DNA of 64,000 bases from Cladocopium goreaui. Taxonomy: Eukaryota; Sar; Dinophyceae; Suessiales; Symbiodiniaceae. Below are positions 10,862-64,000 of the stretch, in pieces. Each line of letters opens with the position of its first letter. The stretch's first letter is position 1. The stretch is taken from the NCBI GenBank assembly GCA_947184155.2, contig CAMXCT020002713.1, positions 309,501 to 373,500 of the forward strand, in the 5' to 3' direction. The notes below the pieces were generated by a model that saw nothing but the letters and a program-made list of their open reading frames with translations, was not told where the DNA came from and did no database searches. The translations under genes were made by a program, and so were the position numbers.

Positions 10862-10956
10862 TCTGGCTTTGTCTTCTCACCAAGAGAAAGGTTGTATGTG
10901 AGAGGTGTGTGAGTGGTATGACAAGTTACTCAAGATAAGATAGGGGGGGGGGGGTA

Positions 10957-26696: not shown

Positions 26697-26895
26697 TCAG
26701 TCCATGTCGCCCTCAGTGGCACCACCTCCAAAAGATTCAATCTCGGCTCGAGCTTCACCAATGGCATCAGCAGGTGGGGAATCAGAATCAGCACGCCCAA
26801 CAGGCCCCGAAGCCACATCACCAGGACCTTCCCCACCACGAGGAGCATCATCAGCGACAGGAGCCATGCCCCCAGCGCCATCACCCACAGGAATC
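26697..26895 (-). CDS. Acidic low-complexity exon
   Basis: Acceptor taactaag at 26896; donor candidate gtgatt at 26696. It encodes a Gly/Ala/Asp-rich stretch (PVGDGAGGMAPVADDAP...GEARAEIESFGGG). The UGA just at the end could be a true stop if no splice occurs. Confidence 0.4.
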
Positions 26896-27000
26896 CTTAG
26901 TTATAGTTGGTTGCAGCATGAGGAAAAGCAGGTTTCAAAACTTGCTCTCACTCACTCAAAAAATGTTTGTCCAAGTTTTAAAAAACATCATCCAAGACAC

Positions 27001-27314
27001 TCAGGTTCGAGGGCGTGCGGCGGCACACATCGGTAAGGACAATCCATCTCCGTTTTGTTCGCACACTGTCTCCAATCCAGCACGCATGCACGGTGAAATG
27101 CATGTGTGCACCACAAGGCCATGGTGTCATCCCCACGGCGCATGTGGTCCTGGCATATGCAGCAAGTTGGAAGATCTTCCTCATGATCAGCTTCCCCATC
27201 CTGAGAACCATTCGCGGCAGTTGGAGCAACTGGAGCTGGTGCTGGTCGAACTTCCTCAGCAACAACACGAGCAGCCACTGACGTTGAAACTGGAGCCTGT
27301 GGAGGGCGATTGAC
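27001..27314 (-). CDS. RING-H2 zinc-finger exon (E3 ubiquitin-ligase type)
   Basis: After a Pro/Ala/Val-rich start (VNRPPQAPVSTSV) and an acidic linker, the frame reads CCICQDHMRRGDD, then WCTHAFHRACVLDWRQC, then MDCPYRC. This is a RING-H2 pattern (C-x2-C, C-x-H-x2-H-x2-C, C-P-x2-C), with aromatic Phe and Trp at the usual core positions. RING domains bind two zinc ions and recruit E2 enzymes. The acceptor ggttgag at 27315 follows in phase from the 27482 exon (PSSA-VNRP). The donor is near 27000 (gtgtct). Confidence 0.7.
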
Positions 27315-44160: not shown

Positions 44161-44790
44161 AGGGCTCCATTTTCACCCTACCAGGTACTCATCTTTCATG
44201 GTTCATCCTCCTCATGACTGTCACTTTCTTCCCAATATCCCGGCCCCATCTATGCTACCAACATCTGTACTCCTTGCTTCTGTCCTCCTCATTGTCCATT
44301 GCCTCTTGCCTATCTTGCACAGATTGCCACCTCCTCCTGTCATATGCTGCGGCTCCACCACGTGCCCCGCCCCGTGCTACTCACTCCGGTGTCATGAATC
44401 TCCTACTAAACCACAATACACTGCCCCCCCAATCCTGCCACCGGTCATATGTTGTACATCTTTCCTTCTGTTGAAGTGTCTGGTATTTTGTTGACTGAGC
44501 CTGGACCTAACATGACTCTCTCCGTCAGCAGCCATTGGTTCGAACTGTGAGGACACCGCACCTGCATAAGCCAGTGTTGCTTGGATCCTCACTTTTACTC
44601 AACTTCTAATTGCTCGCCCGTTCATTCTCCCTTAAGCCGACACGGGGTTCCCGTTGTTTGGCCCCTGCCCGTTTCCCGGTGTTTGGCCGCTGCCACGCAA
44701 TAGCGAGTGGTTCCTGTCGTTTGGTCCTACAAGCCGTGCAACTGCCTCCACTCTGAAGAGTGCTGCCACTGCAGGGTACCTGCTGCTGGT

Positions 44791-46361
44791 ATGCCGAAGC
44801 CAAACCCTTTTCCTTCTGGCCTAATCAGTGTTTCTGATCAACACCTACTGGACATATCGGCTGGAATGAATTGGAACATGCCAGCAGCCAGCAGCGTTCG
44901 TTTTCTTGCAGTGAGGGGCACAATATGGGTAGGTGATTGCCAGACAACATATAATTTCACATTGGTGAATACCACTTGCATATTGACGAGGTACCATGGA
45001 TCATTTTTTCGACCCTCGCCGACGCCCTTGAGACAGAGTTTGACCCTGCCTTCTGGGATACCGTCAATTATGGCCGAAAAGAGCGGTGGGGTTTTCTTGA
45101 ACTACCCTGGGATGGAAAAGTCTACGGTGCTGCACCACAGTATGCCCAAGTCCGACTATCCATCTTTAATCGTGACGCTCACACCATGCGTGTTGTGCAA
45201 CCGTTTGTGTGGAACCATACGCACCTAAAAGTTCACCCGAACGGAGCAATGGTTTTCCATGAACAAAAAAGATTAGCCTTCCTGCTGCCTTTGATAGTAG
45301 AAGCCCATGGGTTGCTGCCGCCTAAGCCATTGTTCTGGGTCAATGAAGACAATACCATCCCATTGTGGAGAACCACCCTGTGGACGCATGAAGAAACCAT
45401 CCAGTGGTTAGCTGAGACCGGAGAGACGTACCCGCAGGAACTGCGAGATGAACTCCAGCCGCGCATTGACCAACTTAAGCCTTCACAACATGCGAAACGG
45501 GCACTGCCTCCGCCTCCGCCGGTACCGACCAGGTGGGCGGAGCGATCCGCAGCAAAACAGCCAGCACAAAAAATGCAAACAGATGCTCCACCGGACCCTA
45601 AATGTACTCAGAGCACGCCACAGCAAGTGGCTGACCGAGAGCGGCAATACATGGAATTGCAGTCTATTATTCATCAAGCAAACCAACAAACGTTGGCAGA
45701 TAGCCGACCAGCGGCGACCAGACTGACCCAAAAACCAGCCAATTTGCTGGCCGCAAGTCAACAAAGCACAGACATTGCAGCAACGGCCGCATCGTCCAAT
45801 CCCAGTACAGGCGTAGTGGCGGAAGCTCCAACCCCGCAGCAAAGCAAGTCACCTGACAAAATCAGTGCACAGTCATTATTTCACAGACGACCAGGCCCAC
45901 CATCGGCCCTGCCTGCGAACAAAGCGCAAACGGATACCCCGGGTACCGGCGTGTTATCCTCTGACTCTCACTCTGCAACCCACAGCAAAGATGATGAGCA
46001 ACAACAACCTCCGGAACAGCTCGCAGCCCACGACGACACATCAACAGAAGAATCGTCGCCTGCAAATACACCCAAAGCATCGCCGGAGACTCAAGCGACT
46101 GACACTGCTGGTGCTAGCAGCCCTGAGCCCGCCAGTGACTCCATGCAGGACGTCGACCTCGCCGCAGCGGACATCCCAACGTTGCAGAACATGGAAAAGA
46201 CAGCCTGTGAAAGAGTGGCCTCCTGTGAAACGCGACTCCTCAATGCCCGCGAGCACCTTACTCGCATTAGAAAGCGCCTTAAAAGAATGCAAGATGCCCA
46301 CTCACCAGGCACTCTGCAACCCTCTCCTGTTGCAGATATGGAAATGGAAATCATTGACTGA
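44791..46361 (+). CDS. LINE ORF1 protein with C-terminal coiled coil, one frame break
   Basis: ATG at 44791 (MPKPNPFPSGLISV). The first frame runs to about 44955 (TTYNF) and then the protein continues in the -1 frame (HIGEYHLHIDEVPWIIF) to the UGA at 46361. The N-terminal 170 residues look like a folded domain with strands rich in aromatic residues and a conserved PLIVEAHGLLPP motif that also appears in the 14.4 and 15.3-kb remnants. The middle is disordered (Pro/Gln/Ala/Ser-rich). The end is a charged heptad-like helix (EKTACERVASCETRLLNARE) that fits an oligomerising coiled coil as in LINE ORF1 proteins. No RNA-binding motif was identified. Confidence 0.65.
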
Positions 46362-46415
46362 CCGTACAGACAGCTAGCACTGTGTGCACCTGACTGTGTG
46401 AAATCACCTGATCAG

Positions 46416-46801
46416 GGGTCGCCTCCGTCCGAGGTACGAGGTTAGGATAGTCCCTTTATTCCCTTTAGGTTAACTTGCCTTTGAACTCTGGTTCAAAGGC
46501 ACCTTGGGGTAACTTGGAGTGTTAGCCTTCTAAACTTCCACGCGTTGTTGCGACTCACACGCCCACAAACCAAACAAACAAACAACCAACTTAAACTTGT
46601 CACAGTTTTTTAGTTGTCACTGTTTCACTCTGTTTTATTTGGAACCAGAGTGCTGACAGTATCTGTTCTTATCAGACAGCAGTGCAGGTGCGTGTCGTGA
46701 GGCGGAACTGTTGTGACAACTTGTTTTTATTCTTGTGACATTTTGGTTTAAGTGGTGGGTGGGCGGGAGACCTTTTAGTTGCGGCATCCCAATTTTTCTT
46801 T
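46416..46801 (+). repeat. Split direct repeat A1 (left end)
   Basis: 386 bp, nearly identical to 54688-55073. It contains a perfect 10-bp hairpin GCCTTTGAAC-tctg-GTTCAAAGGC at 46477-46500. Differences seen: gtgctg/gtactg, caggtg/caagtg, tattct/tactct. Confidence 0.95.
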
Positions 46802-46966
46802 GCATGCGGCGTCGTGGAACTCCAGCTGACCGTGGTTACGTTGCAGCTTCACATCAGATTGTGCTGGGTCATTTACAGAAGCATTCACAGTTTTCTTTTT
46901 GCAATTTCTGTGCTGGATTTCTGGCAGCTTGCATTTGCATTGGGTGGCTTTTGTCGGGACCTCTAG

Positions 46967-49272
46967 ATGAGTGACAGCAGCTCTGACACCACACACGAGG
47001 CAATCTTGCACAACTTGGTAAGTCATCAGTTGCGCTTGTCCCGCCAAGTGACACAGGTTCAAAACGACATCCATTCTTTGCAGGCTCAATTGACTCTGAT
47101 TCAATCGCAGTTGCAACTTTTGCTGGTACAACATGGTTGTAAAGACCCCCCTGCCGAACGTCCAGACCAGGAGTCGACAGGCAACACACGACACGCTTGA
47201 GGCCATACCACCTCGAGAAGGGGTAGATGCGGGTATGACCTCAGAACTTGCTGCAGCTGAAGGTAATTTTGATGCCACTTCTTTCACAGACATGTTGAAT
47301 GAAGGAGCAGTTGAAACGCATGACAACAGTGCGTATGATGCAAACCTTTGGAGTGATGAGTTTGGTAATGCTCTGAACCTTTCTGGCATGGAGACGCCTT
47401 CAGAAAACTTTTCTGATGCTGCGGGCTTAGTCAAGAGAGGGTTTGCAGATGTTGTTGAAGGAACGGAAGTTGGCACCTCAACTGTGACCGTAGGACAACA
47501 GCTTGGACCTCAGGACATTGACAAGTTGGACTTGGACGCATGTGTCAATACAGCTTTGTTTTCTTTGCCAACGTGGGCCCCGAAACCTATTTGGGAAGAG
47601 AACATTTGGGCTGCAACTCTTGGTGACGGCATTTTGATGAAATCTGATTTTTGCACAGCAGAGCTTTACAAACCGTCATTTGTCCCCTGCCTGGACGCTT
47701 GGATGGGGCAGATTTCAGAATGCAGTCGGAAGCTCAAAAGATCCATGCAAGATAGTTTGAGTGACAGTTACGCTGATGTTGTCAGACATGTCACTGACCA
47801 GTCCTGGCAAGAGGAAAGGGAATCCTTGTTGCAGGCAGCACTCAAGAGGTGGCTGGTTGTGGTTATCTCGTTTCACCCAGCCACTACAGTTTGGGTGCAG
47901 CTGGCAGCAGAGACTGACGATGTTGGCAAGCTCACTGTTTTGGGTGATTTGTTCAGAGGAAAAGCGCCTACAACGCTTTTGAAAAGGGCAAGAGCAGTTG
48001 AGAAACTTTGGATTTTTTGGCGTGGGTGCGTTCCCCACCAGTGAACAAAAGATCTACCAATTTTTCCAGTATGAAAGATCGAAGAGTGCACCACCATCGA
48101 GGCTGAAGAGCTACCTTGAAGCCTTGGCTTTTTGCTTTCATGTTTTCTCAATGTCAGAACTGAAAGAGGTCGTGGCCAGTAAGAGGTTGCATGGATGTAC
48201 AATCCCCGCTGTGCCCACTTGCGTCATCCAGGCTGCCCCACTGACTGTCGAAGAGCTGACAAGGCTGCATGAGATTTTGCAGGACCAGTGCGACTGGAAC
48301 TCAGCTTTTGCAGGTGCAGTTTTATTTGTGGTTTACTCAAGGGCACGTTGGGCGGATGCCATGCACAGTCACAGCCTTTTGCCAGATCTGGATGAGTCAG
48401 GCATCACAAGGTATTTGGAAGCAACGTCAGCGGTGCACAAAACCATGCATGCGTCGATTTACAGACACAAGATGTTGCCACTGGTGGCACCGGCCGTGGG
48501 TGTGGTGAAAACCCCATGGGTTGACAGATGGATGGAAGTGAGGAAACATCTGAACATTTTGATGCCACCAGACCATGCGTTGATGCCGGCCCCATCAGGT
48601 GGAGGCCAACCGACCCAAAGGCCTTTGTCAGCGACGGAAGCTGGTGCCTGGCTTAGGAAGCTCCTGTTTGGCAACAAAGAACAGTTGGAACACAAAAGAG
48701 TTTCAGCCCATAGCATGAAAGCTACAACGCTTTCCTTTGCAGCAAAATACGGAGTTGACGCTGAGACCAGACTGCAGCTAGCATACCATGTTGGAGGGTT
48801 CAAGATGCTCCACACTTATAGCCGTGATGCAGCTGCCCAACCGTTGTTGGAACTTGAGAAAGTTTTGACCGCCATCAGGGAAGGTCGCTTTCGTCCTGAC
48901 TCCACCAGGAGTGGCAGGTTCATCCAAGAGCCTTCGGACACCCATGCATGTGAGAGCATGGAAGTGGTGGACCTGACTGAACCGAAGGAGGAGGAAACCT
49001 CCATCATCGATGAGGTACAGTCCAGTTCCTCTGATGAGAGCGAGGAAGAATTTCCTGCCTCCAATGGTCGTATCTTCAAGCCACCAGTGGCGCCTGAAGG
49101 TTACACGTTCTGGCAGCACCGTAAGTTGAGGACCCTTCACCTCACCCTGCCAGAATACAAGAGAGTCCTCATGTGCAACCGGATGATTGGGCCGCAGTAC
49201 ACACAAGAGGGCATGATCATAAGATATGACATGCCTGTGTGTCGACAGTGTGCAACGGCGGTTCGAAGTTAA
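46967..49272 (+). CDS. Tyrosine recombinase of the YR retrotransposon, two homopolymer frame breaks
   Basis: ATG at 46967 starts MSDSSSDTTHEAILHN and a coiled-coil stretch (QVTQVQNDIHSLQAQLTL). The frame then shifts at a C6 run (about 47142) to the segment 47133-48044, and again at a T6 run (about 48012) to 47998-49272; removing one base from each run gives one continuous protein. The C-terminal catalytic part has YSRARWADAM (first Arg, about 48334-48360), AHSMKATT (His-x-x-Lys in place of His-x-x-Arg, about 48706) and AYHVGGFKMLHTYSRD (nucleophilic Tyr near 48817). The enzyme should insert the circular cDNA. The tail is acidic (DEVQSSSSDESEEE), followed by a basic end with a CRQCA pair. Confidence 0.8.
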
Positions 49273-49905
49273 AACGGCGATGCATGTGATTTCAAACGTT
49301 TTTTTTAAACGCAGTGAAGCAAATGGAGAGTGGTCGAAAGTTTGATTCTTCGAATGTCAGACACTCACATTGGCTCATGCTCCAAATCATCTGAACACCA
49401 CATGCATGCGCTATCCTCCTACTACCCGATCGCGACGCGTAATGACGCAACACCGCGTTCCTCCTCTAGCGAGCGACATGACATGTATTAGGGGTAAACT
49501 CCCCTAACGCGGTCATGGTAGGATTCATCGAGTGCAGAGAGAATGTCAATAGACGTCATCTGCTGGTGGATCAAAGAATTTTTTCAGAGTGCAACATGTT
49601 CGAACATGGGGCCATGAAAACGAAGATGTCAGTTTGAATATTTCATGGGAGAGTCGGCATGGATCAGGGGTCATGCAACTCACCATAAAAATCTGCGCAA
49701 TCGTTCCGCAGCCAGCATTTTGTTGGCGGAAAATGTGAAGTGAGACAACTGTTATGCAGGCTTCATTTCAATTTTCGCACGATGCAAAGATTGGCTAAGT
49801 TTTTTTTTCAACATGTTGTTTTCAGGTGATGGACTGTTGTTTTCAGGACTCACATGAAGACATGCTGAATCCTCTTCTTTAGTTTGCTTACCGTAGTCAT
49901 CAAAC
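49273..49905 (+). other. Spacer inside the YR retrotransposon
   Basis: 633 bases between recombinase and Gag without a convincing ORF. T/A-rich stretches (cgttttttttaaacg at 49299, and gtttttttttcaac near 49800) lie before the Gag start. It may contain the promoter or leader of the gag-pol mRNA. Confidence 0.4.
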
Positions 49906-51117
49906 ATGAGCATAGTGGACAGTGCGGCAGCATTTGAACGGAAGTGCAAGGAGCTCAAAGGCGGAGATGAGCTGTTTGATGGACTGGAAAAGCTGGGCGT
50001 TTCAGACTTCAGCACATTAGCATTTGCCTTGGGGACTCCACAGAAAGCCCCATCAGATGATCAATTTTCAGAGCTGGCGGGAAAGGTATTTGCTGCTCCC
50101 ACTTTGGGCCAATTGGCTTTACTGCGGAAGCTTCATTTCGAGGCTACAACGTTGATGGTGGCAAGCATCAATGAGCAGGTGAAGTCGGACAGTGGAGACC
50201 CTGCTGGGCTTACGAAGAGGCTACCTGCTGCAGAAAAACAATCTAGATTGGAAGCCCAGTCCAAGCGCTTGGCAGGCTTGAAGATAGCTGGTGAACTAGC
50301 GCCCAGTCACCAATTGCTGAACGCAACCAATGCAATGGTGGAATCTGGAATCATCACTTGGATTGCCCCTTCAAAGTGCTCGAAGCGTGATGACGAGGTG
50401 CAGGCTAATATAAAGCCATCAGCCTCCACCTTACAGATTGAGCAGTCAACCCTTAAAGTAGCACAGGTGCCTGTGGTGACATCAGCCGATGTTGGGTCTG
50501 AATTAAAATTACAATGGGCGCTGCAAAGGCGTGGACTGGCTATGGATCAGTGCAGGCTCCTTGACTGGACCTACCATGAAGACTGGGTCCAATGGCTCTT
50601 ACAGGCACTTACAAAGGATGTGCCGTCTGGGTTTGCCTCCATCAAGCTGGATCAGATCTTGCGTGCTGACAAAGAGTTGTGGACAATCCTTGCTCAGCAA
50701 CAGACGAAGTCACTACGACCGGTCAACGACCAACCAGTGCTCAACGAAGACTTCAAGAAGCTGACAACGGATCCGAGAATCACCATGCTGGTGTTGCCGC
50801 TGCCTACAACAGCAGCCAGACCGCAGACACAAGCTCCTCAGAAGAAGGCTGATCCACCAAAGCCTACAGGGGGCCATGGACCACCAAACAAGAAGAGAAA
50901 GCTGACCAGGGCAGAGAAGAACTGCCCGGAAGAGCTGAAGAAATACAATCTCAGGTTGGAAGGCAAGGGCAACATATGCTGGAACTACAACTTAGCAGCA
51001 GGGTGCTCCAACAGCGCATCCGGTACGCCTGCAAAGTGCATGCGAGGCTTCCACGCCTGTGCTCATTGCCACAAGCCTGGGCATAGCGTCACTGCCTGCA
51101 GGTCGAAGCCGTCGTGA
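49906..51117 (+). CDS. Gag-like protein with C-terminal zinc fingers, ends in UGA-CUA
   Basis: ATG at 49906 (MSIVDSAAAFERKCKEL). The body is helical and charged. A Pro/Lys-rich linker (QTQAPQKKADPPKPTGG) leads to a Cys/His region at the C-terminus: an ICWNYNLAAGCSN-type CCCH segment and a CAHCHKPGHSVTAC zinc knuckle (C-x2-C-x4-H-x4-C), the classic retroelement Gag RNA-binding fold. The stop is UGA at 51115-51117, immediately followed in the same frame by CUA GAG and the open pol frame, so a Gag-Pol fusion by readthrough is likely. Confidence 0.85.
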   Translation: MSIVDSAAAFERKCKELKGGDELFDGLEKLGVSDFSTLAFALGTPQKAPSDDQFSELAGKVFAAPTLGQLALLRKLHFEATTLMVASINEQVKSDSGDPAGLTKRLPAAEKQSRLEAQSKRLAGLKIAGELAPSHQLLNATNAMVESGIITWIAPSKCSKRDDEVQANIKPSASTLQIEQSTLKVAQVPVVTSADVGSELKLQWALQRRGLAMDQCRLLDWTYHEDWVQWLLQALTKDVPSGFASIKLDQILRADKELWTILAQQQTKSLRPVNDQPVLNEDFKKLTTDPRITMLVLPLPTTAARPQTQAPQKKADPPKPTGGHGPPNKKRKLTRAEKNCPEELKKYNLRLEGKGNICWNYNLAAGCSNSASGTPAKCMRGFHACAHCHKPGHSVTACRSKPS

Positions 51118-54100
51118 CTAGAGGGCTTGCATGGCAACAATGGGCCTTTTTCCAGTGTCGCCGAAGTTGTGAACACTCCGGAGCCCAAGCCGAAGCCATG
51201 TGAGAGGATTGAACCTCCTAATTCAAATTTTTGCTTTTCAAAGACTTGCAGTGAGCCACAAGGACACCACCAGAGATTTGCAGGTGTTGCCATAGATGAG
51301 TTGCTGGTAATTGAAATCTGTGCAGGCTCTGCGCGCCTGACAAAGACATGTAGGAAACTGGGTATCAGGGGCCTTGCAGTTGATAAAATAACGAGTCGCA
51401 GCTGTGGCATTGACATCATGACGCTGGATTTGACAGTACCGTCACAGCTTCAACTCCTGCTTGATATCATCAAGGCAGAACGAGATCGATTGCTCATGGT
51501 CTTTATTGCACCACCTTGCGGAACAGCCAGCCGGGCTCGAGGGAGGCCCATAAAGAGCAGCCTCCTCAATGGACGCAAAGCACCTCAACCATTGCGTACT
51601 GACTCACAACCGGATGGCAAAGACAATTTGACAGGTGTTGACAAACTGAAGAAGACAGAGCTGGCAAACCAACTGTACGATGCGGTTTCCCAGATCATTT
51701 TGTTGGCTCACAGCCTTGACATTTGTGTGGTTGTTGAAAACCCTGCGAACAGTCTTTACTGGAAGACATCGTTTGCTTTGAAATTTTTGCAATGCATTGA
51801 AGGCTTCAACATCGATTTTCACAACTGTTGTCATGGGGGAACACGAGATAAATTAACGCGCTTCTGGTCCAACAAGAATTGGTTGGAGCCACTGAGACTT
51901 CTTTGCGATGGGTCCCATCCGCACCAGAGTTGGCGACCGAGAATCCAGAACGGGCAGTTAATTTTTCCTACCGCTGAGGAAGCAGCTTACCCATGGTTAC
52001 TGTGCACACGAATTGTCAATTTAATTTTGGTTGCAGGTAAACAACTTGGTGCAACGGTTTATGAAACCCTGGGGGCACAAATGGAACAGCAAAATTTTTC
52101 AATGATGAACAGATATATTTTTGGAGCCTTGCCACGGTCTACGAAACTACGACCTCTGGTGTCGGAGTTTGCGGATTTCCACCACATCATAACGCCTGCA
52201 CAACATGTTGACCACAGCACGGCGGTTTTGCAAATATGTCCAAAGGGCTCCAAACTGTTATCCCGCAGATTGTGGAGGTGGGGTAATTTTCGGGCGGAAC
52301 AATACGCTGGTGCATGCAAGTTCCTGGGAATTTCAGAAGACGAGCTGCTTGATGATAGCACTGTGGAATGCCATCATGTTGGAACAGTACATGATCCCAT
52401 GAGCTTTGTTGCAAAGGCAGTTGACGCCGGACACCCTAAAGACTTGCGTAGGCACATTGACCAGTCCTTGCACGAGGTGATTTTGGAGAACTTCCACAAA
52501 CCACCACACCTTCTTGCACAAAAGAGGATTGACTTTCTGAAGAAGTATACAGAGGTAGCAAAGAGTTGCAAGGCAGCTGAGCTCAAGTTAAGGTTAAAGA
52601 TGCCTGATCACTTGAGAAAGCTGATGGTCAATAAACGTCTGGTCCTGCTGGGGACTATGCTCAAAGACCTTGGGTTCCCTGACGAGAAGCTCATAGAAGA
52701 TATTTCTACAGGTTTCAAACTCAGCGGTTGGATGCCGGATTCAAAGATCTTCCCAAACCATGTGCGAGGCCCTACTTTGACATTGGATGCCTTGCGACAA
52801 ACAACGGATTCCTTCAACTCCAAGGTGCAAAAGCAGATGCAGTTGAGACAGGACTCAACCTTGGAGACTGACACATGGAATGAAACTGAACACGAACTGG
52901 AACAAGGTTGGATTTGGGAAGATGAGAGCGCAGATTGGACCGGCAAAGCAGTTGCCCGCCGATTTGGGATAAAACAGGGGCAAAAGACCCGTGTTATCGA
53001 TGACTGCACGGTTAGTGGACTCAACCTTACAGTGGGAACCAAGGAGAAGTTCACTCTACATAGCATTGACCAAATGTGCAGCATGATTGACCACAGTTTG
53101 GAATTGGCCGCAGGGCCTCACTGCCCTATTTTGGGCAGAACATACGACCTCAAATCAGCATACAAACAATTTGGTCTATGTGTGGAGGACCGGAACCTTG
53201 CAAGAATCGCTGTCAATAAACCTGGGAGCAAGGTTCCCATTCTGGTGGGTCTCAACGCGCTACCATTTGGCGCCATTGGGTCTGTCGCTGGGTTTTTGAG
53301 GATATCTTTTGCAATTTGGTGGATTGGCGTTTTTGGCCTGGGAATAGCATGGAGTGCATACTTTGACGATTATTCTACTATCACCCGCCCTGAGTTGGAG
53401 GCGAGCACTCACTGGGCTGTAACCACTTTGTTCGAGTTGGTTGGGCTCCTCTATGCCAAAGAGGGGCCGAAAGCTCCACCTTTCAATGCAACTTTCAGAA
53501 TGCTTGGTTTAGTTGTGGACCTTCAGATGATTCCTTACAAACAATTTTTTGTGACCCATACAGCAGAGAGACGTGACGAGCTCAAGCAGTGCCTTGAGGA
53601 CATTGTGCAGAAAGGTGAAATCACGTCGAAAGAAGCAGAAAGGGTCCGAGGACGAATGCTTTTCTTTGAATGCTTTGTATGCGGCAGGGTGGCCAATTTG
53701 GATCTGAAATTGTTTGGAAATCTGTGCAGATCAGGTCGCACGACCAACGTCTTGACCACTGGTGAAATTGAGATTGTGAGGCGTTTGAGTCGAAGGATAG
53801 AGACTGGTACTGCAATTCCACTTGGAATAAAAAACCTTGATACCTGGTTAATTTTTACAGACGGTGCTTGCGAAGGTGAGAGGCCTCGCGGGAGTGTCGG
53901 TGGAGTCCTGGTTTCGCCGAACCACCGCGTTGTCCATCACTTCGGAGAAACAGTTCCTGAAAACCTCATGTCTTTGTTGCTTGGTTTTTCGAGCCACCCA
54001 ATCCACGAGCTCGAAATGATCCCTGTCTTCATACCCTTCCTTCTTTGGCAGCACTTGTTTGGTGGCAGCCAAGTGGTGCACTACATTGACAATGAGTCAG

Positions 54101-54348
54101 TCAGACTTGCGTTACTCAGGGGAAGCGGTGAGACAGAGATTGCTCGCTTAGTGGCGGCAAAAATCATGGATGCCGAATTTACTGCCGGCACCAAATCTTG
54201 GTATGCTAGAGTTGCTAGTGAAAGCAACATAGCAGACGCACCGAGTCGCTTGGATTTCAAACTTCTTGAAACTTTGGGTAGCACCTGCTTTGCTGTGGAG
54301 TGGAATCTTGTGCTTGCGAGTTGCTCACCTCTGAATGGGGGAACGTGA
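51118..54348 (+). CDS. Pol: methyltransferase-like domain, reverse transcriptase and RNase H
   Basis: It is open from the codon after the Gag UGA to a UGA at 54346. There is no in-frame ATG near the start, which favours expression as Gag-Pol. First comes a methyltransferase-like region: LLVIEICAGSARLTKTC, FIAPPCGTASRAR (about 51502-51540) and VVVENPANSLYW (about 51728-51763). Next is a DIRS-type reverse transcriptase: TYDLKSAYKQFGL (about 53141-53177), LPFGAIGS and AYFDDYST (catalytic FDD, about 53356-53380). Last is RNase H: IFTDGACEG (about 53851), YIDNES and NIADAPSRLD. Classical DIRS elements carry their methyltransferase-like domain after RNase H; here it is at the N-terminus. The end overlaps repeat B1 by 8 bases. 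Confidence 0.9.
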   Translation, partial: LEGLHGNNGPFSSVAEVVNTPEPKPKPCERIEPPNSNFCFSKTCSEPQGHHQRFAGVAIDELLVIEICAGSARLTKTCRKLGIRGLAVDKITSRSCGIDIMTLDLTVPSQLQLLLDIIKAERDRLLMVFIAPPCGTASRARGRPIKSSLLNGRKAPQPLRTDSQPDGKDNLTGVDKLKKTELANQLYDAVSQIILLAHSLDICVVVENPANSLYWKTSFALKFLQCIEGFNIDFHNCCHGGTRDKLTRFWSNKNWLEPLRLLCDGSHPHQSWRPRIQNGQLIFPTAEEAAYPWLLCTRIVNLILVAGKQLGATVYETLGAQMEQQNFSMMNRYIFGALPRSTKLRPLVSEFADFHHIITPAQHVDHSTAVLQICPKGSKLLSRRLWRWGNFRAEQYAGACKFLGISEDELLDDSTVECHHVGTVHDPMSFVAKAVDAGHPKDLRRHIDQSLHEVILENFHKPPHLLAQKRIDFLKKYTEVAKSCKAAELKLRLKMPDHLRKLMVNKRLVLLGTMLKDLGFPDEKLIEDISTGFKLSGWMPDSKIFPNHVRGPTLTLDALRQTTDSFNSKVQKQMQLRQDSTLETDTWNETEHELEQGWIWEDESADWTGKAVARRFGIKQGQKTRVIDDCTVSGLNLTVGTKEKFTLHSIDQMCSMIDHSLELAAGPHCPILGRTYDLKSAYKQFGLCVEDRNLARIAVNKPGSKVPILVGLNALPFGAIGSVAGFLRISFAIWWIGVFGLGIAWSAYFDDYSTITRPELEASTHWAVTTLFELVGLLYAKEGPKAPPFNATFRMLGLVVDLQMIPYKQFFVTHTAERRDELKQCLEDIVQKGEITSKEAERVRGRMLFFECFVCGRVANLDLKLFGNLCRSGRTTNVLTTGEIEIVRRLSRRIETGTAIPLGIKNLDTWLIFTDGACEGERPRGSVGGVLVSPNHRVVHHFGETVPENLMSLLLGFSSHPIHELEMIPVFIPFLLWQHLFGGSQVVHYIDNESVRLALLRGSGETEIARLVAAKIMDAEFTAGTKSWYARVASESNIADAPSRLDFKLLETLGSTCFAVEWNLVLASCSPLNGGT

Positions 54349-54687
54349 CGGGAACTCGAAGCAATTCTCCCCGCAGAAAAAGAGTGGCGGCCTGTTTCAT
54401 TCATGAATTCCTGATTTGATTCGAACGATTGGTGCGTCAGATTTATTTTTAATTTTTTTTTGTGGAACTCGGCGAACATCACGAGGAGTTGATCACTCCT
54501 TCCCGAAGGGTTCTCGGCATGTGCACGTTGATGTTTCTCATGTGCGTATGTTTGCGAGCATGTTCGTACGATACATATATACTTGTATGTGTGTACCCAC
54601 ATGTTTGGTTTAGTTGTTGTGAGCGTAGGCCGTTACGCGAGGTTGAAGGCTTCCACAGGTTACCCCTCTTAACCTTCTGAGGAATAA
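54341..54687 (+). repeat. Split direct repeat B1
   Basis: 347 bp, matching 55133-55476 apart from a longer T run (three extra bases near 54450-54460). It contains ggagttgatcactcc, an inverted repeat. Confidence 0.95.
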
Positions 54688-55073
54688 GGGTCGCCTCCGT
54701 CCGAGGTACGAGGTTAGGATAGTCCCTTTATTCCCTTTAGGTTAACTTGCCTTTGAACTCTGGTTCAAAGGCACCTTGGGGTAACTTGGAGTGTTAGCCT
54801 TCTAAACTTCCACGCGTTGTTGCGACTCACACGCCCACAAACCAAACAAACAAACAACCAACTTAAACTTGTCACAGTTTTTTAGTTGTCACTGTTTCAC
54901 TCTGTTTTATTTGGAACCAGAGTACTGACAGTATCTGTTCTTATCAGACAGCAGTGCAAGTGCGTGTCGTGAGGCGGAACTGTTGTGACAACTTGTTTTT
55001 ACTCTTGTGACATTTTGGTTTAAGTGGTGGGTGGGCGGGAGACCTTTTAGTTGCGGCATCCCAATTTTTCTTT
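54688..55073 (+). repeat. Split direct repeat A2
   Basis: Second copy of A (46416-46801), directly abutting B1. The 10-bp hairpin recurs at 54749-54772. Confidence 0.95.
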
Positions 55074-55132
55074 CCCACCCTAAACACGTGGCGTTTTCCC
55101 AACCCTACTTGGGATAGCCTAACCCTACCGTC

Positions 55133-55476
55133 GAACGTGACGGGAACTCGAAGCAATTCTCCCCGCAGAAAAAGAGTGGCGGCCTGTTTCATTCATGAAT
55201 TCCTGATTTGATTCGAACGATTGGTGCGTCAGATTTATTTTTAATTTTTTGTGGAACTCGGCGAACATCACGAGGAGTTGATCACTCCTTCCCGAAGGGT
55301 TCTCGGCATGTGCACGTTGATGTTTCTCATGTGCGTATGTTTGCGAGCATGTTCGTACGATACATATATACTTGTATGTGTGTACCCACATGTTTGGTTT
55401 AGTTGTTGTGAGCGTAGGCCGTTACGCGAGGTTGAAGGCTTCCACAGGTTACCCCTCTTAACCTTCTGAGGAATAA
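55133..55476 (+). repeat. Split direct repeat B2 (right end)
   Basis: Second copy of B, separated from A2 by a unique 59-bp spacer (55074-55132) with aaccctac words. It ends ggaataa, after which host (LINE) sequence resumes. Confidence 0.95.
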
Positions 55477-56064: not shown

Positions 56065-59000
56065 ATGCTGCAACAGCTTATGACACCAAATAGGTTCATT
56101 TCGTTGACGTCGCCTGACCCTGATGAATCAGAAACAGACATTGAACCAGCAGAGCCAACCGCTCCAGATGACACAGTCGAGGATGTGTCAATGCACAGTG
56201 ATACAGAATACTTTGACGCCCTCGAGACGGATGACGACGTTCCATATTTCCAACAAGGGACTGAGCCTCCCCCAAGGGAGAAGTGGGAAATTGCCGCACC
56301 TATCGATTTCTTGAATGTTCACGAGGTCACACAGTTAAGCCACCAGCTTGACCAACTGTTCCTCTCGCAAAAAGAAGTTGAGACCCCGCTCGGCATGGAT
56401 GACATAAAACAGAGGTGGAAATGGGACGATGTCGGCTCCTGTCGAATGCCCCGGTCACCCCTGACATACCCTGCACTCATGGTGGACGAAGGGAACGGCA
56501 TCCAACGACCCGCAGCCAGCCAGGTCCATCATAAAACGCTCTTCCAGTGGATAACAGATAATCTCTCATGGTTACCTCAGTATGCCACCGTATATGTTTA
56601 TGTGGACAACCGCAAACTGTCAGGCACTGACCCTCCAGCCTACTGGCCGCATTTTGCACCCTGGATCCAAGGCCGATGTACAGTGACTGGCCCTTACCAG
56701 GAGAAAACTACTGCGATCCATTTTCCCATTCATGCTGACACAGGTTTGCACCAGGTCCATTATACCTGGGCTGGTGCCGCAGCTCTGGAGGCGCTGTGTC
56801 TAATGTTCCCCACTGTAAATTTTGCTCTCATCGACTCTGACTGCGTGCCAACCTCATTGTTTGAAGTAGCCGAGCTCGTCAATCTCATGACGGATAAGTC
56901 AAGCAGAGCCGCAGCAATGCAACATAACACAATGGCCAGCTCTAACCAGTGCCCTCCAGCAGTACTCCTTGCCACAGAAGCCAAAGCCGAACTTAATGCC
57001 GGCTTGATCATTGTGACAGGGCACATCCCGACTGAGGCACCCGATGTAGAAATGGCCCAAGCAGACATGCCACCAGCCCCTGCCCAAAGCTCCTCTCCGA
57101 GTGCTGCACCTGCCCCAAAGGCACGACGAATAGCCCACCCTGCCAATCGCACAGCAGATGATTGGGTTACCGCACTCCAGGATAGCAGAGCCAGTTTCCT
57201 AGCTACAACCGCTGTGCCAGAAGACCCTGCGGAAGCAATGAGGGGAGGACTGCTTCTCACCCCCCTACTCGGCTGTAGAGCTAGAACCCCACTTGACTGG
57301 ACACATGCATGGGCAATGTTGGGCGAATGGGCAGGAGCCATTGCATTCCCCATCCCGGAGCGAGGAGAATGGCCACGTCACGGGGATGGCCGATACCTTA
57401 GACCGGACTTTGCCGAGCGGACCCCGCCATTCCTTACCTGGGCACGCCCCATTTTTGAACAAGGTGCACTCTCCCCTCTGTCAGTTTTCCCAGCCGACTT
57501 CCCCATACTTTGTCTTCCAGGAGACAAACTGTTCCAAAGCAAGGAGTTAACCATAGGGTATAGTCTGCCACCTATAGTGCACGCCTTCCATGGGAGCAAA
57601 GTAGGCCTAGGACAACAACTCCGACAGTGGCTAAACAAAGGGCTGCAACCGCTTGCTGTGTCGCTCATAGGAGTCGACGAGGCACCACCGTTGTGGACAC
57701 ACCCCACAGGCTGCGATTTTGTTAGAGGGAGTAAACTAATCGCCAAGCCGCATGTCCTGCAAAACAGAAGCCTTACCAAGCTGCAGGTGTTGCTTCTTCA
57801 GAGTCTGTGGACGCCGGTGGAAGCCCCCAACAACAACAATGACCATACACCTTGGTCCAAGACTTGCGATCCTGCCAATGTTTTCTGCGGTCAGCATGCG
57901 AGCCTCCAGCTCCCCAGTGCCCCAATCCTCCCCCTGCTGGAAGCGCTGCAACGGCGACTGGGCATTGACCCTGGCAACGCAGAACTAGCAATCAACGAAG
58001 TGCTTGCTAGCCATGCTGACCCCCAATACACTGCTTGGAAACTCACTGTCATGGATAACACCTCCTGGCAACTCAATGAGGCTGACCCAGGGTCCCTGGA
58101 AGTTCAGTGCACTGGGTTGGGTGGAGGAGAACTCGATGAAGACTGGGACGTACTGCTAGCCTGCAAAAAGGAAGCACATGTTTACGGGCCATCCCTAAGC
58201 AAACAGGACGATTGGAATGCAAGAGCTGGCACAGTAGCAGGCACTGCTCATACACAAGAATATTTGCTCTTGCACATCGCCATGTTTCCCATAGGTGCAC
58301 ACTTCTGGTGCCGCATCTTAGGCATGCCCAGTGCGAACCAATTGCAAGCGCAAATTATCAGTCGGGCCATGAAGCTGTTGCAATTCTGTCCCATCATCCC
58401 AGCACACAGGAAACCACCGTGGCCCGGGTACATACATGGCCTGCGACTTTTCACTAAGTTGCTAGTTGCACACCCGCTAGTCGGAGTATGTCTGCCCCCT
58501 GAAATCCGCCCAGTCGATCTTCTGAGATTAACAGGATACATGGTAGGCTCCATCTACATTCGGGGGCACAGCGCTGGCTCGTACGCAGGAATGGTATGGG
58601 AAACTATCCTCTCAGAATTCCCAGATGTTGGTGGCAAAACCGTGCTAGCAGCCATTGCGCTACCACCATCGCTGCTCACGACATGCAATTTATCTCAGCT
58701 GAGAGAGATCCACCTCATTCACCATGCAGATGACAGGCTCTGCGTATGGAACCCGTCAAACCATGACATCAAGCTGCTTAAGCAACGGGGCTTTAAAATT
58801 ACGCATATCACAGGATGGAGAGCGTACCTCGGTACTGCACAACATAACTACTCGCATTGGACAAGAGTTGCCCTCCCAGAAGGACGACCAGATATGGAGC
58901 AGTTAGAAGGTACCCCTGGAGTGCTCCCCTTCGAAGTGTACTCACAGGCTCCCCTCCGACTGATCTCATGGTGCAGCTTTGAGCTCTCAAGAATTGCCAG

Positions 59001-59606
59001 AAAACTCCTGCGTGAATTAGCGGAAATGTGTGAGCTACCTGAAACCACGACACAGGCACTTGTTACACACATTGCTGCCCACAATTCAGAGGTCAAAACT
59101 GAGCAAGAGGCAACCCAATACTTAGCCACGTTGGCAACAGTCACCATTTCCTCAAGGTCCAAGTTGCTCAACTATACCACTATGGTACAACATTTCCTCG
59201 GCACCTTGCAATTGCCCCTGGCTATCTACATGTTAGACTACTACTTGCCCATGCTCAGTCCCAATGAAGGCTATAATGAAACAGGGTTAACAATGCAAAG
59301 TGCAGGCCCCATCCGGCAACCATCGCAACCCATCGCCCTAGAATTCCTTTTCAAAGGCAGCGAGTTTGGACACTGGAAAGTTAAAGGCGGGCAGGATGCT
59401 TTCACGTTCCGACACCCAAGCCTGGGCAAAACCGAAGTGTTCAGCCTGCTGGCCAGCGATGCGCACCATCACAAAGTCAGCCCCATTGGCACGGGTAGGC
59501 TCATTGCCATGGTGGGTACAGCGGACGCACTAGCTTATGATGGAGATGACCTTCAAATCCTTTTTGGCTTGGTCCTCGCCATCACGCCACGCGCAGCCAA
59601 AAAAAG
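56065..59606 (+). CDS. ORF2 part 1: GT-A glycosyltransferase-like and alpha/beta-hydrolase-like domains
   Basis: First ATG at 56065 (the frame is open from 56002). After an acidic disordered start there is VNFALIDSDCVPTSLFEVAEL (DSD at about 56833-56841), then AELNAGLIIVTG (about 56986-57021). This spacing matches GT8-like GT-A glycosyltransferases (DxD metal site plus the FNAG motif). Further on, RGHSAGSYAGMVW (58561-58599) is a GxSxG nucleophile elbow. It is followed by IHHADDRLCVW (about 58717) and QHNYSHW (58840-58860), which supply plausible Asp and His for a hydrolase triad. Both are fold-level inferences from motifs. The frame breaks at an A7 run (about 59600), after which the protein continues in the -1 frame. 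Confidence 0.6.
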
Positions 59607-60310
59607 GATGAGCTGGCTGCCTCACGCATATACAGACAGTGCAACCCTAAATTCATCGAAGTTGCTTTCCTCTCAGGACCAGCCATTGAGTTTTTTGCAA
59701 AGGAACAACTCGAAGCCCTCCAAGACTGGTATAGTGCCTCCGGCCAGCACCTGGACCCCGTCGACGCGACCGTCCAGGGGCAGAACAGCCCGGTCCCCCA
59801 GACCTTCTTTCTCGATACAATGTGGATGTTCGGATGTACTAAGCCTACCCGTGAGCTTACCGCGGTTGCGCAAACCCCCCCGTGCAGGTACCACCTGGGA
59901 TTAGGCATTTACAATGTCCAAGCAGCAGTAGAAGGAATGGAGGGCAACAAAAGATCGCATTTCTTGCATTTGTGCGGCCAGTTGCTCCGCCTAGTGCTAA
60001 TTCCATGTCACGTGGAGGGCGAGCTTCACCCTTGGACTCGCTCCACTGCACTTTCCTTTGCCGCTGAGCTTGACGGACACGTTTTAGGCACACTCTGCGC
60101 AGTGACAATGGCGTTGCTCACCAACCGGCTAGATCTGTGCATCCAAGGGCTTTTCGGAGCAGGCAAGTCGAAATCGATGGCAATCCTCATCCTGGCCTTG
60201 ATTGAAATCGACACTACCGACAGCCTCAAAATATTGTTCATTTGCAAAGAGAACTCCGGCACTCGATCCTTTGCGGACCTCCTCCTATGGCTCGACCCCC
60301 CGTCGGGGGG
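59600..60310 (+). CDS. ORF2 part 2: start of SF1 helicase (Walker A)
   Basis: The -1 frame from the A7 run reads KKDELAASRIYRQCNPKFIE... and then GLFGAGKSKSMAILILAL (P-loop, about 60149-60200) and LKILFICKENSGTRSFADLL (motif Ia-like). It breaks again in a C6-gtc-G6 tract at about 60297-60308. The A7 tract (c aaa aaa agg) could support programmed -1 slippage, but the second break has no such explanation. Confidence 0.7.
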
Positions 60311-63300
60311 TGTTTGGGCGCATAGGTAGGCTGGTGGGAGACCAAGAGCGCAACAAAAGCAGTTACTCGCACACGCAATTTGATATCCACCCGAGAGAAA
60401 GAAGGCAAATGCTGAACAAGTGTCAATTAATATTAGCCACCGGGGGAACGGTCGCCCAGGATCTTACCATGCAATGGTCCACAATGAGTGGATTCATGCA
60501 AGAGCTCTCCCTCCTTGTCATTGATGAAGGCCAGCAGTACGGCACTGACCGCGAAATTGCAGTTATCAGCCTGCTGAAACAGCAACCCCTGGTCCTGTGG
60601 ACAGGAGACTCGGAGCAGACACCTGGCGGTATTGATCGGGCAGCTCGCAACGCCAAACGGGCACGACAACTACTGTTAGCCAAAAAGCATGGCCTGCGAA
60701 GCGACCGCAACTACTACATGCCCGCCAACCTTGCCGATGCAATGATCCGACTGCTAGATGGTTCGGCAAATGAAGGCTTAACGGCTCTTAGTCAAATCCT
60801 CAAACGAGGCCAGTCCACATTAGGTCAGCTATGGACAAGTCACCTCTCGCCGCAGGATGAGGAAGACCTCAGGGCAGCCAGCACTGTGCTCCCAGGCCTC
60901 AAAGCCGTATTTGAAGCAGCTCAACCAAATATGCAACGACACTCCCGATTCGTAGACTCGGAACTGCTGGCGGGTACCGCTCTCAATTTTCCACGGTCTC
61001 TCGTGCGCCTTGCCTGGATTTTGCAGCATGCCGCTACCCTCCTGCCCATGGCTGGTGACATACAAGCAGTATTAAACTCTCAGACCGCCGGCGTAAGCGA
61101 CATCCATGCCTGGGGGTTAATGCTTCCGTCCAGTTCCAGGGTTAGTCCTGTGACATACCATGCAGTAGTTGCAGTTAGATATCCTAATCTTTGCGGGAAG
61201 ATCAATGGCCTATGGGAACTAGGAAGTTTTGCTTCGGGAGGCCTTCCCGACAAGCCACCCGGGTTCCAACTAGTGCTCTGGGATACTAATGCTAGGATCA
61301 ACGGTTTGGTAGCGACGGATTTAGAAACTCTAGTGTCAGAAGTACTCAGCCCCTTCCCTCACAATGCTGGATTTGCCGATGGACTTTTCACAATGACCAC
61401 AGCAACTGATCATAAGAACAATTTGAACCGCTCCGTGCTCAAAAGAGATTATGTTCGCACCCTGCGTGTAGAAACAATAGCCAATTCGGCAGGAGGAACA
61501 GCGCAGGTATCAATCGTAGCTCAGCCCAGTATTGGATTTCTCAACACTAAGTATTACTCCAATGGCTCTCCTACAGAAGACACTGAAGACTGCCTAGGCA
61601 GAATCACTGTCGGACTCACTCGGTCCAAATCGTTAACCCTGCTGGTCTCCCCGCTAGACATGATGGGGCTCATGGGCATGGCACAGGTGATTGCTGCCAT
61701 TGCATATGGCATCCGGGGCCTACGGAGAGGAGAAACGACATGGAGCATGCCAAAATTTGACCCTGACCCAGTCCAAGAGAATCTAGCACAGCTAAGTCGG
61801 TGGTCACTCAATTCGGCACCAACCTGGGAGTACCCTCCCCTTGCAATTGCCAATCAATACTACGATCAGCAAGCTGACGAAGTGAAGCGAGCAAGATATC
61901 GGCTGATATTGGTGCGAGGGTCAGACCTTAGATGGCTGAACAGGGAGCGCTTCCAAGAAATTCAAGCAGGGTTACGAACTCAACACAAGTGGCTCCCCGA
62001 GCAAAATCTCCCTTTCTCTGAAGTTGTTCTATATGCCTACGCTGCTGATCGCACACACTCTCCCACGTACGTGTGCCTACCCTCAGGACTGTACAAAGCA
62101 CGCACCGGGCACATAATAGCACAGACGGGCCCAGAACAGGAGATCCTGTCCCTGCCTGGCATATACTTCTTTGATGGATGGCGATTACACCCGAAGTTGC
62201 CGATCCCAGACCACTTGCCACGCGCAAAAGAGGCGCCAGTCCAAGGTACCGCTCTCGCTGCACCTGCACCTGATACGGAACCCAAACGGTCGCCAGAAGA
62301 AGAAGCACGAGACATCCTCGCAGTCGCTGCCAAGAACCAGCCCGAAGATGGGCCAAGCACAAGAAGAGCAGCTGTTCGCGCATGCAAGTACTTACGAGCC
62401 ATGGTCAGCCAATATGAAACCACCATCCAAGCCGTGCACAGTGCCGCCCGCACCCACACGCAAAGAAGCAAAGGCACGGTGGGACCTGCAGTTGACTATC
62501 GCCCACAAGGAGAAGCCCTCCCCGTCATCTCGGCGGACCTAACCTCCGAATTGTTGCATTGTCTGTCCACGCTCCCAGACCCATGGCCCCTAGCTAAGAT
62601 CACCATAGACATGGAGAAACCGAGCCAATGGGTCTCAAAGTTGTGCAGACTTTATTTTGCTGACGAGTATGCCAAGCGAACAGTTGGGTTGCCCTCGCGT
62701 AGGCATGTTCCGGACATCGCGGGTGCACTGCGAGCAGTTCAAGCCATCCTCCCTAAACTCGAAGTCAAAATGATTGAGTTCTTAGCTGAATGGATGGTAA
62801 CTCTTCTAATGCCAGCCTCGCACGTATTGGAAGTGAGGGCACCTCACCTTTCCTTTATGATGCTTAAGGAATACTGGTTTAGAGAACTTTATCTAGGCCT
62901 GAAAGTCACAGCGTCCTTCGACCGCTCTGAATCATACACTAGAGTGATCGATGGTCAAGTAAGATGTATCACGCCTGAAGTCAAGCCGCAGAACCTACAG
63001 GTTATCTGGAATGTGCAGTTCATCACAGTCTTTGTGCCGGCATGGATGATCCCGCCCGTCTATCATAGCCTGCGCAGAGAAAGCATTAAAACTACAAGTT
63101 CTGCAAGTCCCATAGGAGTCCAGTCAGTCCGTCCCACCTGGTTTGAAGACACAACACCCAGGGACACTACATCCCAGCAACCTCAAGACCCTCAGAAAGA
63201 GCAACCCCAGCCACTGCATGGACTGAAGTTAGTCATCAAAGAAGAGGTGCTACCAGCGACTGACCAACCACAATTCCAGTCACTTGAGCTGCTGGCTGGC

Positions 63301-64000
63301 AGAGGTCTCTTAGCACCTGACACATGGAAGTGCAAACGTGCACAAGTCAGCCTTAAAGCAACTATCGATGTCCCAATGTTGGGTACAATCATAGAGGAAA
63401 ATGGTGACGGACTCCTGGAAGATTCCCATATGCCTGTGGGATGGCCACTCCACATCGATGGCGCTGTCAGACAATGCTGTATTCACAGAGCTGCTAGCTT
63501 ACAAGAATTAGATGACATGCTCAAAGAATATGACATGAAAAGGGATTCAGTAGAAATCAACCGTGACGCGCCCCAATGGTCCCATCATGCAGTATGGAAC
63601 CGAAAGTATATGGAACCGAACCCAGGATACACACTGGAGCAACTATGGGCCGACTCCGAACCTGCCATAAGCAAAAAAACAACCACGTCATATGATGTAC
63701 AAACAAGTGACGTGCAACGTGCAGTAGCGGCCATTCAGCACTTCCCATCCCCCGTTCCCCCTGATAGCCTCTTCATAAGAACACTAGGGACACCGGCGGC
63801 CCTAAAAGCCCCACCGCAGACGGACACCCTGGCGCAAAGAGCTCTAGAAGAATGGGAACGCACTGTGTGTGAAAATAAGGCAGTGGCAATCCTCGCCGAG
63901 ATCCAAGCTGGCCGACCGACTATAATCCATAAAGATGGGGGTGAAATGCTCATTGCCATTGTCCTTGATAGGCCACTGGCGGAAGCGAAAGCACTAGTGG
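60202..64000 (+). CDS. ORF2 part 3: SF1 (Upf1-like) helicase core and unassigned C-terminal region, partial
   Basis: I followed this frame line by line from 60301 to about 62160 without a stop and sampled it in the same phase up to 64000. It reads VFGRIGRLVGDQ, LSLLVIDEGQQYG (Walker B, about 60511-60549), LWTGDSEQTPGG (motif III, about 60595-60635), RSDRNYYMPANL and DCLGRITVGLTRSKSLTLLVSP (motif VI, about 61591-61655). Together with the P-loop upstream it is a complete superfamily 1 helicase. Beyond 62200 there is a disordered, charged linker and another globular region (about 62560-64000) I cannot assign. A helicase fused into a retroelement ORF could unwind the RNA template or the target DNA. 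Confidence 0.8.
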   Translation, partial: MKSTLPTASKYCSFAKRTPALDPLRTSSYGSTPRRGVFGRIGRLVGDQERNKSSYSHTQFDIHPRERRQMLNKCQLILATGGTVAQDLTMQWSTMSGFMQELSLLVIDEGQQYGTDREIAVISLLKQQPLVLWTGDSEQTPGGIDRAARNAKRARQLLLAKKHGLRSDRNYYMPANLADAMIRLLDGSANEGLTALSQILKRGQSTLGQLWTSHLSPQDEEDLRAASTVLPGLKAVFEAAQPNMQRHSRFVDSELLAGTALNFPRSLVRLAWILQHAATLLPMAGDIQAVLNSQTAGVSDIHAWGLMLPSSSRVSPVTYHAVVAVRYPNLCGKINGLWELGSFASGGLPDKPPGFQLVLWDTNARINGLVATDLETLVSEVLSPFPHNAGFADGLFTMTTATDHKNNLNRSVLKRDYVRTLRVETIANSAGGTAQVSIVAQPSIGFLNTKYYSNGSPTEDTEDCLGRITVGLTRSKSLTLLVSPLDMMGLMGMAQVIAAIAYGIRGLRRGETTWSMPKFDPDPVQENLAQLSRWSLNSAPTWEYPPLAIANQYYDQQADEVKRARYRLILVRGSDLRWLNRERFQEIQAGLRTQHKWLPEQNLPFSEVVLYAYAADRTHSPTYVCLPSGLYKARTGHIIAQTGPEQEILSLPGIYFFDGWRLHPKLPIPDHLPRAKEAPVQGTALAAPAPDTEPKRSPEEEARDILAVAAKNQPEDGPSTRRAAVRACKYLRAMVSQYETTIQAVHSAARTHTQRSKGTVGPAVDYRPQGEALPVISADLTSELLHCLSTLPDPWPLAKITIDMEKPSQWVSKLCRLYFADEYAKRTVGLPSRRHVPDIAGALRAVQAILPKLEVKMIEFLAEWMVTLLMPASHVLEVRAPHLSFMMLKEYWFRELYLGLKVTASFDRSESYTRVIDGQVRCITPEVKPQNLQVIWNVQFITVFVPAWMIPPVYHSLRRESIKTTSSASPIGVQSVRPTWFEDTTPRDTTSQQPQDPQKEQPQPLHGLKLVIKEEVLPATDQPQFQSLELLAGRGLLAPDTWKCKRAQVSLKATIDVPMLGTIIEENGDGLLEDSHMPVGWPLHIDGAVRQCCIHRAASLQELDDMLKEYDMKRDSVEINRDAPQWSHHAVWNRKYMEPNPGYTLEQLWADSEPAISKKTTTSYDVQTSDVQRAVAAIQHFPSPVPPDSLFIRTLGTPAALKAPPQTDTLAQRALEEWERTVCENKAVAILAEIQAGRPTIIHKDGGEMLIAIVLDRPLAEAKALV

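Follow-up and report, generated by a model that had tools for sequence, protein, structure and literature searches.

Retrotransposons of the long interspersed nuclear element (LINE) type are usually regarded as compact, with lengths of a few kilobases. The published dinoflagellate LINE SymbioLINE-Dnmt is described as carrying a DNA-methyltransferase open reading frame (ORF) upstream of an ORF for endonuclease, reverse transcriptase and RNase H, and as showing target-site duplications, many copies and purifying selection (PMC5890265). The TRAS and Jockey LINEs of insects, which are also non-LTR (long terminal repeat) elements, are reported to include members with a captured viral superfamily 1 (SF1) helicase and its full motif set (PMC6338049), and the terminons, giant Penelope-like elements of bdelloid rotifers, are described as reaching up to 40 kb and housing several accessory ORFs, including GDSL esterases/lipases (PMC6431247). 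The present analysis concerns a 64,000-nucleotide stretch of the genome of the dinoflagellate Cladocopium goreaui (contig CAMXCT020002713.1, here C2713, positions 309501-373500, forward strand), referred to throughout as the window. At its right-hand end lies a long ORF, ORF-e, which joins a glycosyltransferase (GT-A)-like, an alpha/beta-hydrolase-like and an SF1-helicase-like region. With this make-up it very probably stands last, at the 3′ end, among the ORFs of an autonomous non-LTR retrotransposon of giant size (family 1, about 30.5 kb), to which a diverged element (family 2, about 34.5 kb) is related.

The family-1 element and its copies

Five further family-1 copies, A5970, B6004, C2730, D1405 and E2223, were fetched for comparison with the window. 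E2223 (contig C2223) is complete: with a spliced-leader relic at one end and an A10 tail at the other, it measures 30,477 bp, lies between perfect 18-bp target-site duplications, and contains from 5′ to 3′ five ORFs of 1,090, 1,344 (methyltransferase-like), 2,066 (endonuclease-reverse transcriptase (EN-RT)-RNase H-like), 552 (ORF-d) and 2,739 (ORF-e) amino acids, counted from stop to stop. Its host site is another related copy, entered between the methyltransferase-like and EN-RT ORFs, and the two halves of that copy match contiguous element positions at 88-89%. An earlier reading of the window from its letters alone (the sequence-only reading) had expected full-length copies to end in EN-RT. 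This proved to be the wrong way round, as EN-RT lies 5′ of ORF-e and not 3′; the linkage itself holds, since a single transposed unit contains both.

The endonuclease and reverse transcriptase (RT) of the EN-RT ORF both exceed their Pfam cut-offs (40 against 24.5 bits and 54.6 against 29.6 bits, respectively), and the RNase H-like match (RVT_3) falls just under it (20.3 against 21.6 bits). In the methyltransferase-like ORF the match to DNMT (PF00145) is weak and under the cut-off (E = 0.076 and 0.073), and a PCQ motif can be recognised by eye. The N-terminal half of the same ORF (L030:8166-9998) gives a weak match to Peptidase_C39, also under the cut-off (E = 0.0054). Downstream of RNase H in the EN-RT ORF of E2223 (L028:7258-8280, about residues 1690-2030), and likewise in that of family 2, are found the motifs E(I/V)D(L/M).G.FYE and W.HDG, which by eye recall motifs A and C of family-A/T7-like polymerases; Pfam lists nothing in this region.

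The window copy occupies positions 12981-64000 on the plus strand and continues to an A-tail ending at C2713:375462 (window-relative 65962). It is preceded by an 18-bp target-site duplication (12963-12980) that is repeated exactly after the A-tail, at window-relative 65963-65980 (C2713:375463-375480), and its insertion site lies within a copy from a different element family; related sequence shows that site uninterrupted. The absence of an RT joined to ORF-e in this copy is explained by its being 5′-truncated and bearing two nested insertions. A5970 is likewise 5′-truncated; by eye it begins (positions 1-951, or C5970:599050-600000) directly after what appears to be the 3′ terminus, with A-tail, of a family-2 element. 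The remaining four copies run upstream into the end of the EN-RT ORF, which is partly deleted in B6004, lies in two frames in C2730 and meets the contig end in D1405. That the unit might lack an RT and depend on a separate LINE for movement in trans was considered and dropped once these upstream flanks proved continuous with EN-RT. ORF-d, whose 552 amino acids run from stop to stop in B6004, D1405 and E2223, is present in the window (44704-46377, plus strand) with a broken frame.

The same arrangement recurs across the 1.17-Gb assembly, in which the genome searches with ORF-e gave 5,724 candidates for family 1 (37 scored) and 4,133 for family 2 (33 scored). An EN-RT junction lies upstream of ORF-e, co-oriented and within 30 kb, at no fewer than 14 of the 37 family-1 and 11 of the 33 family-2 places; the lists of places are samples, and these counts are therefore lower bounds. 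The 25 pairs are typically about 9.5-11 kb apart, and among the scored places no other arrangement of EN-RT and ORF-e within 30 kb was found inside either family. Between families, no pair was co-oriented with ORF-e downstream, and three neighbours stood in other arrangements. About 0.02 pairs per family would be expected under uniform placement, a model that ignores the clustering of elements. For a 1,401-bp stretch spanning the end of EN-RT, 40 places were scored in each family; with a tolerance of one base, the stretch was complete at 36 of them in family 1 and at 37 in family 2.

The 5′ ends of the elements carry a further marker. The sequence of the dinoflagellate spliced leader (DinoSL), and its use as a tag of retroposition, have been described (PMC6050394). 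With up to four edits, the leader gave three matches in 310 kb, two of which are the same window site found twice, and the reversed control gave none. A gapless search of the window with up to three substitutions gave no match, the relic at 12064 requiring deletions to be allowed. All three family-1 5′ ends that were read (in C2223 and in C5861 and C4791, chosen as close relatives of C2223; C5861 was read at the 5′ end only) start at the relic, with differing flanks, and the RNA that was copied is therefore inferred to have been trans-spliced. A second, more degraded relic seems by eye to follow the first. Four predicted family-2 stretches were also read for 5′ ends, and none held one. We conjecture that each ORF might receive a separate leader. 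In C4791, of which only the ends were fetched, the leader starts at 400130 and the A-tail ends at about 430608 (some 30.5 kb), with an EN-RT junction between. In C2223 and in the window copy an A-run immediately precedes the duplication, and other copies have A-runs followed by flanks that differ; a search for target-site duplications of at least 10 bp at C4791 and at the family-2 element found none.

Domain make-up of ORF-e

ORF-e begins with its first Met at window position 56065, as the sequence-only reading had it, and every motif which that reading had listed (DSD and NAG, the GxSxG elbow, the later Asp and His, the helicase set and two homopolymer breaks) was located where it had been placed. 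The range given there, 56065-64000, stops at the window end, and ORF-e continues beyond it. Two homopolymer differences from A5970, in an A-run at 59599 (seven against eight) and a G-run at 60305 (six against five), split the window copy into three frames, all on the plus strand. The first part (56065-59598, the frame being lost at the A-run) houses an N-terminal region; the GT-A-like region (56305-57567), with its DxD at 56833-56841, inside ALIDSDCVPTSLFE (56824-56865, holding the DSD), and its NAG within 56986-57015; and the hydrolase-like region (57568-58962), with an HG motif within 57568-57606, the nucleophile elbow GHSAGS within 58555-58590, an Asp within 58717-58749 and a His within 58831-58860. 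The second part (59599-60304) contains the Walker A sequence GAGKS within 60147-60176. The third (60305-64000, still open at the window end) contains the rest of the SF1-like helicase, whose motifs lie between 60511 and 61653, and a C-terminal region to which no fold was assigned. An open frame of at least 2,700 amino acids is listed for 13 of the 37 scored family-1 places, one of which (C536) is flagged with two TAG codons.

A GT-A fold is predicted for the first enzymatic region and an alpha/beta-hydrolase fold for the second. In alignment A5 (61 rows, P0185 being counted twice), every one of the 60 rows without a gap has D at both Asp positions of the DxD. For the hydrolase, 54 rows were long enough to be read, namely the window and 53 from a searched set of 233 fetched proteins plus one family-2 ORF. 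Ser is S in 54/54, Asp is D in 52/52 ungapped rows, and His961 is H in 51/52, with either H961 or H965 as the candidate catalytic His. The three residues are kept across eight sequence groups of less than 50% identity. The stretch HAFHG..K was considered as a GT8 metal-binding motif and set aside, given that VIA aligns it with the hydrolase and the family-2 relative reads LHGFGT.

For the helicase, aligning ORF-e with 66 relatives shows GAGK[ST], DE[GS]QQ and GD..QTPGG to be conserved, and VGLTRSKS is present in the A6 consensus; we take these to be SF1 motifs I, II, III and VI. All four occur in order in the window, the last three as DEGQQ within 60511-60543, GDSEQTPGG within 60598-60630 and VGLTRSKS within 61600-61653. 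Among 12 helicase rows, Pfam matches at E up to 0.1 were to AAA_30 (12 rows), DEAD (7) and AAA_19 (5), below the curated cut-offs wherever listed, and NCBIfam gave one weak match. The assignment to SF1 is thus weak by profile, and the motif set appears clearest by eye. The proposal of the sequence-only reading, a retroelement ORF that joins these three regions, is supported, by predicted folds for the first two and by motifs for the helicase; the outcomes it had named as fatal did not arise, both folds being predicted and the ORF not being a host gene unlinked to an RT.

The ratio of nonsynonymous to synonymous substitution rates (dN/dS) was calculated for the ten pairs of five open copies, which were picked for their open frame, a choice that may lower the ratio. 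It was 0.05-0.10 over the whole of ORF-e and, by region, 0.06-0.19 (GT), 0.04-0.13 (hydrolase) and 0.03-0.07 (helicase); over the short stretch 450-575, with few changes, it was 0-0.33. Judged by these ratios, the ORF-e protein is maintained by purifying selection, and in its entirety is therefore of use to the element, selection being silent on which activity is kept. Relatives of the protein appear in overlapping lists of 94, 107 and 100 (from about 8,000 scored candidates each), nearly all from ENA with few from metagenomes, and one of their clusters represents 801 sequences. No confirmed relatives were obtained from IMG/VR (one A2 and two A6 peptide patterns) or from GTDB contigs (two A6 patterns).

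Possible roles of the ORF-e protein

The reading that we favour, an autonomous giant LINE with ORF-e at its 3′ end, suggests the following course of events. The element would be transcribed, its RNA would gain a spliced leader by trans-splicing and then be polyadenylated, and insertion would occur by target-primed reverse transcription, with 5′-truncated copies arising when the RT falls off early. The 2,735-amino-acid ORF-e protein would act with the element's own ribonucleoprotein (RNP): the SF1-like motor might open up the RNA template or the DNA target, allowing a 30-kb complementary DNA (cDNA) to be completed; the GT might use a nucleotide-sugar to glycosylate a substrate, most probably a protein belonging to the RNP or to the host; and the serine hydrolase might cleave an ester, either on that substrate or on a different one.

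The GT substrate is the point at which readings diverge, and a protein seems likelier than a DNA base. Neighbours of the GT region listed by VIA include the PBCV-1 capsid glycosyltransferase, mimivirus R699 and the lysyl hydroxylase LH3; B3GalT6 and blood-group-type transferases are also among the fold matches, and glycogenin is a Foldseek match below significance. No GT family can be named. The nearest solved folds listed are mostly those of enzymes whose substrates are proteins or sugar chains. PDB sequence searches, with single proteins and with profiles, gave no useful match to known enzymes, and Pfam gave no domain in the GT/hydrolase part of the ORF. It is a tentative but real possibility that a GT, perhaps derived from a large DNA virus, decorates a protein of the element or the host, the esterase aiding release, membrane passage or trimming. 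The viral and LH3 neighbours favour this, as do the esterases reported among accessory ORFs of giant retroelements (PMC6431247); against it, fold likeness says nothing on substrate, and the three IMG/VR patterns brought up no relatives.

We consider it improbable that the GT glycosylates 5-hydroxymethyluracil (5-hmU) in the element's DNA, as in base J, and together with the methyltransferase-like protein marks or shields new copies. A modified base was one of the two substrates that the sequence-only reading had raised, the other being a protein. A GT-A fold with a conserved DxD and a methyltransferase-like ORF on the same element are consistent with such a role. The base is reported to be abundant in dinoflagellates and, in Breviolum minutum, enriched over most repeats with the exception of some LINE elements (PMC11071213), and the title of a 2024 paper links it with transposon silencing. 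Weighing on the other side, the fold matches listed are enzymes with protein or glycan substrates, and with no Pfam domain in the GT part nothing there suggests DNA binding; it is moreover stated that the additional step leading to base J did not evolve in dinoflagellates (PMC11071213). A bolder version, to which we give slightly less credence again, is a self-marking retrotransposon, in which methyltransferase, 5-hmU glycosyltransferase, esterase and helicase would together lay a base-J-like sugar on the element's own new copies, thereby evading or redirecting silencing based on 5-hmU. The LINEs that are not enriched would fit either a lack of 5-hmU or its masking by sugar; if self-marking were true, the base would be masked.

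No better placed than base glycosylation is the view that GT and hydrolase are catalytically dead scaffolds and that the helicase alone works. In its favour, sequence matches to known enzymes went undetected, and P0020, which lies outside A5, has DSN at the DxD position. The view is doubtful in the light of the DxD kept in all 60 ungapped A5 rows, of the Ser/Asp/His kept across divergent groups, and of the low dN/dS of both regions. Finally, that ORF-e is a separate element or a host gene merely adjoining LINEs is very improbable: the window copy and A5970, which hold ORF-e without an RT, and the nesting of elements, which makes the uniform chance expectation too kind, do speak for it, but ORF-e and EN-RT occur together in one 30,477-bp unit whose flanking duplication is perfect, the 25 pairs are co-oriented with none otherwise arranged within a family, and the window copy is a 5′-truncated insert.

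The second family and comparison with known systems

The 5′ part of a family-2 element (C2713:287041-321582) fills positions 1-12082 of the window on the minus strand, with its spliced-leader relic at 12064-12081. The whole is 34.5 kb long, a length that includes possible nested insertions, and ends in an A11 tail. Its minus-strand ORFs in the window are of 964 amino acids (7982-10876), 441 amino acids (6777-8102), methyltransferase-like (3243-5954) and EN-RT (from 2724 past the window). No DNA match of more than 150 bp to E2223 was found at the settings used, and the enzyme ORFs of the two families are collinear at 28-39% identity: 36% for the methyltransferase, 34% over 1,889 columns for EN-RT, 39% for the GT part of ORF-e and 28% over 1,514 columns for its GT-hydrolase-helicase part. 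Outside them the likeness is weaker (20% for the first ORF), and the 441-amino-acid ORF is related to the N-terminal half of the methyltransferase-bearing ORF (26%). At E up to 0.01, ORF-d has no family-2 counterpart, and the family-2 ORFs of 299, 258, 429 and 336 amino acids have none in family 1; the last of these (Wm 26276-27283), between EN-RT and ORF-e, looks ankyrin-repeat-like by eye. The ORF-e frame is broken in the family-2 element of C2713 and open over at least 2,551 amino acids in 12 of 33 scored copies.

The two insertions nested in the window copy lie outside the LINE proper. One, DNA-transposon-like and about 27 kb long (16122-43116), has imperfect terminal inverted repeats and a 7-bp AATAAAT duplication and is absent from A5970; Pfam gave no match for three of its minus-strand ORFs and one further ORF. 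The other, DIRS-like (46415-55476, plus strand), bears by eye gag-like, RT-like and tyrosine-recombinase-like ORFs, with no Pfam match above cut-off, and its 1,076-amino-acid ORF includes a stretch that appears methyltransferase-like by eye (ICAGSARLT...PPCGTASRARG).

Transposition of some 30 kb, with at least five long ORFs, as one unit raises the question of how an RT completes such a cDNA, and of what role a glycosyltransferase and an esterase play for a retrotransposon. The spliced-leader relic links expression of the element to host trans-splicing and provides an exact marker of full-length copies, and the presence of a methyltransferase-like ORF makes it directly testable whether DNA marks in dinoflagellates are written by transposons. 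Searches of the open-licence PMC literature turned up no account of a LINE carrying this ORF set, which does not prove its absence.

The base-J glucosyltransferase of kinetoplastids (for background see PMC11071213) is a host gene outside any retroelement. Were a base the substrate here, the likeness to that enzyme would be one of activity, both being glycosyltransferases. Terminons differ in their EN-deficient RTs of another clade, their attachment to telomeres and their other accessory enzymes, neither a GT nor an SF1 helicase being among those listed (PMC6431247). In the insect LINEs the helicase is viral, and the main text mentions neither glycosyl nor hydrolase (PMC6338049). SymbioLINE-Dnmt is described as having two ORFs and no poly-A tails, whereas the families here have an A-tail, and its main text makes no mention of helicase, glycosyl, ORF3 or spliced leader (PMC5890265). 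The unit described here extends about 16.5 kb further 3′, adding ORF-d, ORF-e and the A-tail, and has in addition the 5′ spliced-leader relic. Set against the published description, the element is an extended variant of the SymbioLINE-Dnmt design and not a plain member.

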